The translations under genes were made by a program, and so were the position numbers. Below are positions 23,242 through 25,718 of a stretch of 32,181 nucleotides of DNA, one piece after another; position 1 is the stretch's first letter, and every line of letters starts with the position of its first letter. A model generated the notes under the pieces. The model was not told the DNA's origin, searched no databases, and saw only the letters and a list, made by a program, of their open reading frames with translations. This DNA comes from Candidatus Giovannonibacteria bacterium (GTDB taxonomy: Bacteria; Patescibacteriota; Minisyncoccia; JACPKW01; UBA11713), in NCBI GenBank assembly GCA_023266875.1, contig JAHFOJ010000008.1:1-32181 (forward strand), given 5' to 3'.

Positions 23242-23784
23242 CTAAAATTCAATTGGGACGACCAACTCGTCATCGTGTTCAGGAAGACCCGATGGATTGT
23301 CTTTTGAAAAAATAATAGCGCCTTTTTTTGTCGGCGCGGGAGCGAATTTAAATTCCAATTTAAAAGGGACGAAATCCGTAGTCATCCAATTTCCTTGTGC
23401 TTGGGCAACTCCAGAGACAAGTGTGTCACCGTTTGAATCTGCGATTCTTACCGGAAAGCTAGCTTCAAAAAACCAGCTGCCCCGAGCTTCGCCCGTGATT
23501 ACAAGCGGGCTTTTTATTAATTCATTGGGCTTTGGAAAATTTACCCGTATTAAATTAGCCTTCTCAATTCCATTTCCAATGTATTCTTTAAATGTTCTAT
23601 TATCGGATGTTTTACATAATCTCGGGTAACTTTCCATTATAGGGAAACCGGAGGCGAGGCATGAATCAAAGTCTGAAATGGAAGCCAGATTGGTCCGATT
23701 TTTAAAATAAAAATAAATTCCGGAAATCAAAACGATCGCTATAAGTGCGGATACAATTAAAAGTGTACTTAATTGCTTAGTCAT
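23242..23784 (-). CDS. membrane-anchored protein with Gmad2-like immunoglobulin-like domain
   Basis: N-terminal TM; LIRVNFPKPNELIKSPLVITGEARGSWFFEASFPVRIADSNGDTLVSGVAQAQGNWMTTDFVPFKLEFKF. Confidence 0.8.
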   Translation of the reverse strand: MTKQLSTLLIVSALIAIVLISGIYFYFKNRTNLASISDFDSCLASGFPIMESYPRLCKTSDNRTFKEYIGNGIEKANLIRVNFPKPNELIKSPLVITGEARGSWFFEASFPVRIADSNGDTLVSGVAQAQGNWMTTDFVPFKLEFKFAPAPTKKGAIIFSKDNPSGLPEHDDELVVPIEF

Positions 23785-23793
23785 TGAGTAAGA

Positions 23794-23997
23794 TCATAAT
23801 CCTAGATTGCCGAGCGAGCTAAAAGTCTTTATGAAAGACGGGATTATAAAAGCAAGCCCGATTAAAGGGATTACTATAAGCGCGATGGTAATTATGGAAC
23901 GCCATAAAAAATATCTGCGCATTTTTTCAACAGAGCGCGCGGTCGCGTCTATTTTTGCTTCAAGCTCGGATAGTTTTTTTAATATTTCAGTTTCCAT
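23794..23997 (-). CDS. small membrane protein
   Basis: 67 aa: coiled coil then [25 protein letters not shown]. Confidence 0.65.
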
Positions 23998-24394
23998 TTT
24001 TTTCAGGATTAAATTCTAACGCGCAAGAATTGACGCAATAGCGCTTGCCAGTGGCCTGCCTGCCGTCAGGCAGGGTCTTAGGCCCATCTTCAAAGACATG
24101 TCCCAAGTGCGAACAGCATTTCTGGCAAATAACTTCAGTCCGCATCATCCCCGAAGATAAATCTGGAGCTGTTTTAACGCTTTCGCTTGTAGCGGGCGCA
24201 TAAAAACTTGGCCAGCCGGTGCCAGAATCGAATTTTGTTTCCGATGAAAAAAGTTCTGCACCGCAGGCTGCGCATTTATAGAATCCTTTATCTTTGGTTT
24301 TGTAATATTTCCCTGTAAAAGGAGGCTCTGTTCCTTTTTCACGCATCACGTGATATTGGTCGGGGGGTAGTTTCTTTTTAAAATCTATGTCCAC
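23987..24394 (-). CDS. msrB: peptide-methionine (R)-S-oxide reductase MsrB
   Basis: [44 protein letters not shown]...[17 protein letters not shown] start; palindromic in-frame insert TLPDGRQA. Confidence 0.93.
24055..24074. repeat. perfect palindromic mini-element inside msrB
   Basis: cctgcctg-ccgt-caggcagg. Confidence 0.8.
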
Positions 24395-24413
24395 TGATTT
24401 ATTATAGCAGAAC

Positions 24414-24446
24414 TGAAAAGTCGGCGTCCTTGTGGGAAGCCGACTT
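24414..24446 (-). terminator. hairpin terminator for the small minus-strand unit
   Basis: Minus: aagtcggc-ttcccacaaggac-gccgactt-ttcag. Confidence 0.6.
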
Positions 24447-24458
24447 GGTTGGCATGTT

Positions 24459-24629
24459 TTAGTTTATGAACATGCCGGAGGGGTTTGCTGGCAAGCTTTC
24501 TGCGATCCTATGGATCACGTTGAAGACGGCAACAAGCGCGCCTTCAAATGCTCCAAATACTCCACGCATTAAGATGAATTTGAGGAGCAGGATGCAGAGC
24601 GCGAGGCCAATCGCTCGTAAGATTTTCAT
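24459..24629 (-). CDS. small (56 aa) membrane protein, not in ORF track
   Basis: Manual translation [56 protein letters not shown]; upstream consensus promoter, downstream terminator. Confidence 0.65.
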
Positions 24630-24768
24630 AGATTGCTATGAAACTTAGAGGGAACGACTGATGCCGTTCGACCTTGGCACTTGCTTGCTAATCGCAAACC
24701 TTCCCTCCTATCCGGGGATATTTTAATCTCCGCAGATAGGAGGGAATCATCCATGATTTAATGTACTT
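24626..24768 (-). ncRNA. structured leader with SD-containing hairpin
   Basis: ttccctcctatc / gataggagggaa perfect 12-bp IR (24701-24712, 24735-24746) plus inner cggggat/atctccg; a second ttccctc copy on the minus strand near the start codon. Confidence 0.5.
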
Positions 24769-24774
24769 ACCAGC

Positions 24775-24803
24775 ATTATATATTATTATTTTTTATTTGT
24801 CAA
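24775..24803 (-). promoter_or_regulatory. consensus sigma70 promoter
   Basis: TTGACA (24803-24798), 17-nt spacer, TATAAT (24780-24775) on minus strand. Confidence 0.85.
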
Positions 24804-24830
24804 GTCATCGTATTCGTCAAAAAAAGGAAA

Positions 24831-24865
24831 ATCCCGTATCGCTTTATCTTTTTTCGATACGGGAT
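24831..24865 (-). terminator. rho-independent terminator of the DUF378 gene
   Basis: Minus: atcccgtatcg ... cgatacgggat followed by tttccttttttt. Confidence 0.8.
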
Positions 24866-24885
24866 AACCTCTAAACAGCTCTAAA

Positions 24886-25101
24886 TTACATTGATCCCTG
24901 CCCGCACAAACGGCAATTTTGCTTGTGAGTCGCGATTTCGTATATTGCGGAAAGACCCACCAATATGTATATGACCTTAGCCACAGTGCCGGACATACCG
25001 CCCAAGTATGCGCCAATGTCCCATCCGAAAAGACCGAATAGGAGCCAATTGAGGCCGCCGACTATGATTAAGATCCAAGTTATTGTGTGTAATGCCTTCA
25101 T
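24886..25101 (-). CDS. DUF378 family small membrane protein
   Basis: MKALHTITWILIIVGGLNWLLFGLFGWDIGAYLGGMSGTVAKVIYILVGLSAIYEIATHK. Confidence 0.85.
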   Translation of the reverse strand: MKALHTITWILIIVGGLNWLLFGLFGWDIGAYLGGMSGTVAKVIYILVGLSAIYEIATHKQNCRLCGQGSM

Positions 25102-25244
25102 ATTTTTGGATATTTAAAGCCCGGACCTTTATTTGTTAATTATACCAGTTTGGCTTTGCTTTGCAGTGGATTTCTTTTGGGTGCAAATCGTTGTTAAAAA
25201 CACGAGTGCGCGGCTATTTTTTTTGGTTTATAATTATAGGCAAT

Positions 25245-25718
25245 ATGGCAAATCTCTTAATAAAGGATTTTATGATAAAAAATATTATTTCGGTAAGTCC
25301 GGAGACGACTTTGTCTGAAGCGGGGAAATTGCTTGCAAACCATAATTTCAATGGCATGCCGGTCATCGACGGGGCGGGCAAGCTTGTGGGCATTATCACA
25401 GAATATGACATGATTTCGAAAGGGCTTGCTATTCATTTGCCGACATTTCAAACTATCCTCGAAAATATTCCGGTTTTCCGCGAAGATCGCTCACATTTCA
25501 AGAAAGAAGTCCAAGAAATCGCGGCGCTTAAAGTAAAGGATGTTATGAATGATGATCCGCTCACTTTGCCGGAAGACGCGACATTCGCAGAAGCGGTAAA
25601 AGTTTTTTCTGAACACCATCGCGTAAATCCAATTCCTATAATAAATAAGTCAAGAAAAGTTATAGGCATAATCAGCCGCTTCGATATTTTTAAGCCGCTC
25701 GCGCTTCTAAGCCCATGA
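25245..25718 (+). CDS. CBS-domain-pair protein
   Basis: MIKNIISVSPETTLSEAGKLLANHNFNGMPVIDGAGKLVGIITEYDMI and VKDVMNDDPLTLPEDATFAEAVKVFSEHHRVNPIPIINKSRKVIGIISRFDIFK. Confidence 0.88.
   Translation: MANLLIKDFMIKNIISVSPETTLSEAGKLLANHNFNGMPVIDGAGKLVGIITEYDMISKGLAIHLPTFQTILENIPVFREDRSHFKKEVQEIAALKVKDVMNDDPLTLPEDATFAEAVKVFSEHHRVNPIPIINKSRKVIGIISRFDIFKPLALLSP

Follow-up and report, generated by a model that had tools for sequence, protein, structure and literature searches.

A Covarying Structured RNA Leader Accompanies a Small Predicted One-Helix Membrane Protein Across One Class of Patescibacteria

Introduction

The closest described counterparts of the locus studied here include the AapA/IsoA and Hok/Sok systems, which it resembles in encoding a small hydrophobic peptide on a structured mRNA with more than one anti-Shine–Dalgarno (SD) partner around an SD sequence (PMC6733600). 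In AapA3, successive anti-SD hairpins keep the mRNA inert (PMC6733600). Unlike these systems, the SD-like motif of our locus lies about 80 nt before the open reading frame (ORF) and is not its SD, and neither an antisense promoter nor a consistent 5'–3' long-range pairing was found. Dual-function small RNAs such as VcdRP (PMC8672173) are likewise short independent transcripts that contain a small ORF in addition to a C/U-rich motif, whereas the element described here keeps a narrow range of distances to its own ORF. In translational riboswitches and RNA thermometers, as at our locus, structure in the 5' leader masks SD-like and start-codon sequences; however, our leader has no Rfam match, GUC provides its sole conserved loop letters, and it controls no metabolic gene. 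Finally, the locus is reminiscent of leader-peptide coupling or attenuation in that the SD-like motif is followed by a TTG-initiated ORF overlapping the main ATG, but this leader ORF is not conserved.

Patescibacteria, to which Candidatus Giovannonibacteria belong, live in association with other cells, and few of the regulatory RNAs and small proteins that they use have been described. Here, we analyze a unit on the minus strand of the window (the whole 32,181-nt stretch of DNA under study), which is part of a 0.68 Mb genome close to Candidatus Giovannonibacteria, and compare it with its relatives. An initial description made without database searches (hereafter, the sequence-only reading) had proposed a self-contained regulated unit, to be checked by covariation of its stem and by homologs of its 56-aa ORF; both checks came out in favor, with three stems covarying and a protein family found across the class.

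Transcription Unit and Gene Neighborhoods

The unit spans positions 24803–24412 of the minus strand, where a promoter is followed by a structured leader, an ORF of 56 aa, and a terminator. The promoter, TTGACA-17-TATAAT (24775–24803), matches the consensus at 12/12 positions and is the top of 7 promoter-like sites in a scan of 23500–25500; based on its position, the transcript is expected to start near 24768. The ORF (24459–24629), which encodes a small one-helix membrane protein as judged by homologs, pN/pS, and a predicted helix, is followed by a terminator-like hairpin, AAGUCGGC...GCCGACUU, and then UU (24412–24446, with the hairpin at 24446–24418). The sequence-only reading had listed the same promoter, a hydrophobic 56-aa ORF, and a terminator hairpin, and our results support its view that the locus is a self-contained unit for a small protein, complete with promoter, SD-like structured leader, and terminator. 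Near-consensus promoters also precede most relatives, about 40–106 nt upstream of the purine motif GGAGGG described below, and a hairpin, often followed by U residues, is found right after the stop codon in nearly all of them. Promoter, leader (P1–P2–P3–CCUCU), ORF, and terminator travel together across one Patescibacteria class.

We did not identify a gene neighbor common to most loci in a comparison that set aside the neighbors of the window itself; homologs recur mainly between close relatives. We therefore regard the ORF as a stand-alone gene, and an operon or defense-island context was rejected on the same grounds. A phage origin was likewise rejected given that no relatives were found in viral contigs or phage records. 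Insertion beside tRNA or tmRNA genes does not hold as a rule, since such a gene lies within about 3 kb at 6/20 loci, three of which are from one genus.

Several individual neighborhoods deserve description. In the window, the upstream neighbor (25101–24887, minus strand) is a small hydrophobic ORF, MKALHTITWILIIVGGLNWLLFGLFGWDIG..., which we take to resemble DUF378 proteins and which has its own terminator-like hairpin near 24860–24825. The downstream neighbor (23987–24394, minus strand) carries a GTGWPSFY motif and is presumably a methionine sulfoxide reductase B; it has a promoter-like site to itself and is therefore probably outside the unit. In three Giovannonibacteria genomes, the unit adjoins the tmRNA gene (L103 6100–7001, L104 6100–6998, and L105 5139–6000), and a different small ORF lies between the two each time, making this a variable spot at ssrA. 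In L007, L008, and L009, a second hairpin (CUUCCUC...GAGGAAG), possibly a further leader or the border of a cassette, is located just after the ORF and ahead of unrelated small ORFs.

Distribution of the Family

The unit is carried by about 21/384 genomes of the class and is spread over many families; these numbers refer to a single class, of which our sample of about 380 genomes is a part. A two-sequence protein profile identified relatives in five genomes of the window's family (counting that of the window itself) and gave weaker matches in other families, and an iterated profile identified 19 solid members in addition to G071 in the 384 genomes. G323, which was recovered through the RNA, brings the family to about 21 members. 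The named relatives carrying the unit are Candidatus Giovannonibacteria. Within the window's own family, 2/7 genomes have neither the protein nor the RNA.

Architecture and Conservation of the Leader

Compared with dinucleotide shuffles, the fold of the leader has a z score of −6.0 and that of the whole transcript a z score of −9.3. The leaders of most relatives score about −3 to −8, and control stretches of the same loci are mostly near 0. Side by side, the relatives share a common anatomy of promoter, P1, P2, P3, CCUCU element, often a hairpin at the AUG, ORF, and terminator. P1 (24746–24735 paired with 24712–24701, plus an upper stem-loop; 24701–24746) is defined by sequence, fold, and covariation across 14 members. 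In the window it is a perfect 12-bp stem with AGGAGGG within its 3' arm, exactly as the sequence-only reading had it, and in relatives it comprises about 10–17 bp with GGAGGG in the 3' arm. The P2 hairpin, UUUGC-GAUUA-GCAAG (24684–24698), has double changes at 5/5 pairs with 95.7% of cells paired, and the P3 hairpin, GUGCC-AAGGUCGAAC-GGCAU (24661–24680), which contains a conserved GUC in its loop, has double changes at 5/5 pairs with 98.6% paired. Downstream is a conserved pyrimidine element, UUCCCUCU (24647–24654; CCUCU core at 24651–24647), which is complementary to the purine arm of P1 and in which CCUC is nearly invariant; the second ttccctc copy placed at 24654–24648 by the earlier description is thus present. 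The P4 hairpin, UUUCAUA-GCAAUC-UAUGAAA (24624–24643; −10.2 kcal/mol, z −3.6), encloses the start codon, and comparable hairpins occur in most relatives though not all, being weak or absent in several members. All of these features are on the minus strand. Conserved letters are limited to GGAGGG, GUC, and CCUC, and loops other than GUC vary freely.

The distance from the purine motif to the ATG is 73–88 nt in the 18 members with an uninterrupted leader. It is 82 nt in the weak member L059, in which the motif itself is doubtful, and 336 nt in L066 because P3 holds an insert. This insert (G071; L066 1194–1470) breaks the P3 region with roughly 220–260 nt and bears long inverted repeats, CTAGGCCTCTAAGTATAGTTTGAATTC and its complement. 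L058 and L059 have the protein common to the family and no clear P1–P3, and were missed by the RNA models.

P1, P2, and P3 covary. Across 14 sequences in an alignment trimmed by hand, 94% of cells are paired, and double changes are found at 17/21 pairs (81 double-change cells vs. 24.2 in shuffles), a signal that collapses when the partners are slid by 1–3 columns. Since the stem arms of this alignment were picked and trimmed by eye, we also draw on three tests that depend less on that choice: the z scores above, an automated hairpin scan, and the discovery of members through the RNA alone. The scan found a hairpin with GUC in the loop in 17/18 leaders (1.26 expected) and the P2+P3 tandem in 11 leaders (0.13 expected). 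In a search of 374 genomes with strict filters, whose counts are therefore lower bounds, the best matches of the RNA-only model R3 in 14 genomes (E < 1e-4) all lie directly before a family ORF. R3 found G323, with the ORF MIGAILLIIIIAVFVPETLSALTELLMVTLGKMIEIVDFIEIP, which the protein profile had overlooked; an additional match in G323 corresponds to the opposite strand of this site. Model R2 recovered the interrupted leader of L066, which was outside its training set. Five members (L014, L010, L035, L057, and L062) score weakly with, or were missed by, one or more RNA models. Weak R3 matches without a family ORF (L095–L097, L099, L101, and L102) were taken as chance, as were the extra matches (L051 and L053) of model R1, which lacks P1 and is too weak.

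There is no Rfam match at the gathering score in the window or at the element in 14 relatives, permissive E-values yield just weak chance matches, and nothing specific to the leader motif was found in the open literature. The RNA leader is previously undescribed.

The GGAGGG Motif Is Probably Not a Conventional Shine–Dalgarno Sequence

The sequence-only reading had placed, six nt after GGAGG, a 23-codon TTG-initiated ORF (24626..24697, minus strand), the TGA of which overlaps the main ATG, and had inferred that the two are coupled. This leader ORF is present at 24697–24626, whereas the functional, coupled role does not stand: the overlap is unique to the window among 18 leaders, the LRLASK start is found in the window and G004 only, and in 12/18 leaders the purine motif is not followed by a start codon at SD spacing. 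Given this lack of conservation, leader-peptide coupling was rejected, the leader ORF was judged not functional, and GGAGGG is, on comparison of these leaders, not the SD of a leader ORF. An N-terminal protein extension starting from GGAGGG was also rejected based on the GGAGGG-to-ATG spacing, which is not constant modulo 3.

The motif is also not the normal SD of the main ORF, from which it is about 80 nt away. No SD-like 4-mer is present in the 18 nt before the ATG in 14/21 main ORFs, and in four of the remaining seven the 4-mer pairs with the start of the coding region; in relatives from genera g3 and g5, a GGAG before the ATG is present and paired in this manner. The anti-SD looks ordinary in G002, a member of the window's family, in which the likely 16S 3' end reads GGATCACCTCC; the 16S 3'-end pattern had no match in the window's own genome. 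The conserved anti-SD-like CCUCU sits near the usual SD position before the AUG, and this is the premise of a reading in which ribosomes would be recruited remotely, 73–88 nt upstream, at what is for most of these transcripts the only strong SD-like site. The folding of P2–P3, with a purine–pyrimidine exchange or a triplex on P1, would then join ribosome and AUG solely when the GUC loop reads a signal. We consider this reading as a whole highly improbable.

A Possible Switch Between GGAGGG and CCUCU

Most members have a downstream CCUCU that complements the purine arm, and the pyrimidine copy is conserved in nearly all, so that the CCUCU element, from its complementarity, is a possible alternative partner of GGAGGG. 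What is conserved is the sequence of such a switch; the switch itself is possible. The pairing has almost no covariation, and controls differ little from the observed values, since both sides are almost constant and an invariant pair cannot covary. A parallel triplex and antiparallel CCUCU/purine pairing are moreover indistinguishable given that GGAGG has the same letters from either end.

In energy predictions for 17 full-length leaders, the purine arm always pairs upstream, within P1 (17/17). When the 5' arm of P1 is removed, the purine arm pairs with CCUCU by 7–11 bp in 4/17 leaders (L012, L014, L015, and L035) and by 2 bp in L010; in other f1 members, CCUCU pairs instead with GAGAGG beside P3. 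P1 is very stable, so a spontaneous switch of GGAGGG to CCUCU is unlikely. This stability, together with P1 being the predicted purine-arm partner in every full-length leader tested and with loops that, apart from GUC, vary freely, unlike a ligand pocket, would suit a passive leader whose folds stabilize the mRNA or fix a low translation rate without switching; however, a need for stability would not account for the conservation of the GUC loop, the CCUCU element, and the purine motif, and we regard this explanation as unlikely.

The near invariance of CCUC, which need not pair within the predicted full-length fold, bears on another alternative, namely that the transcript of ~330 nt is a dual-function small RNA that encodes the protein and also acts in trans on other mRNAs, with the anti-SD-like CCUCU or the GUC loop as seed. 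The predicted promoter and terminator, which would yield an independent short transcript, fit this alternative, whereas the CCUCU can be masked by GGAGGG or P3 sequences, and the RNA element precedes its own ORF at an almost constant distance, with no copy found apart from that ORF. On balance, a trans-acting role strikes us as unlikely, if slightly less so than a passive leader.

The Small Membrane Protein

Members of the protein family have 43–72 residues, a sequence pattern of roughly GLxLxIVxLxxLxPxVFxxFExxLLxFF, and, in all cases, one strongly hydrophobic stretch. AlphaFold2 predicts a single helix (residues 2–45, mean pLDDT 79). The pN/pS ratios are 0.34–0.44 for pairs including the window and 0.11–0.29 among other f1 pairs; this range of 0.11–0.44 within family f1 indicates purifying selection on the encoded protein. 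The window protein is 53% identical to that of G004, and no relative of note was found in Pfam, NCBIfam, PHROG, PADLOC, or PDB. Purifying selection and the identity to G004 led us to reject the interpretation that the whole transcript is a noncoding RNA with a spurious ORF.

A small hydrophobic peptide encoded by a heavily structured mRNA with two anti-SD copies around one SD-like motif, distributed patchily and reminiscent of the metastable anti-SD hairpins of AapA3 (PMC6733600), could be a type I toxin, with stacked anti-SD structures keeping the mRNA inert and an antisense RNA as the antitoxin. However, an antisense promoter scored above shuffles in 0/21 loci (in a scan for a sigma-70-like consensus only), the family has one copy per genome, the SD-like motif does not serve the peptide as its SD, and no long-distance 5'–3' pairing is conserved among relatives; a Hok-like pairing of this kind, suggested by the window's own fold, was rejected as inconsistent in relatives. 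We accordingly view a toxin as quite improbable.

Predicted Control of Translation in cis

Our preferred reading, held with moderate confidence, is that the structured leader acts in cis on the translation of a stand-alone gene for a one-helix membrane protein. In this predicted mechanism, the folding of P1, P3, and the start-codon hairpin would block or limit the entry of ribosomes. A signal, possibly read via the GUC loop of P3, would remodel the leader, perhaps such that GGAGGG exchanges its upstream pyrimidine partner for the downstream one, upon which the small protein would be made and then insert into the membrane.

This work adds two items to those described for Patescibacteria, a structured RNA with conserved stems and a family of small membrane proteins, neither of which has an entry in the public family libraries that we searched. 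With a covariance model, defined stems, and the GUC loop in place, the proposed mechanism is directly testable.
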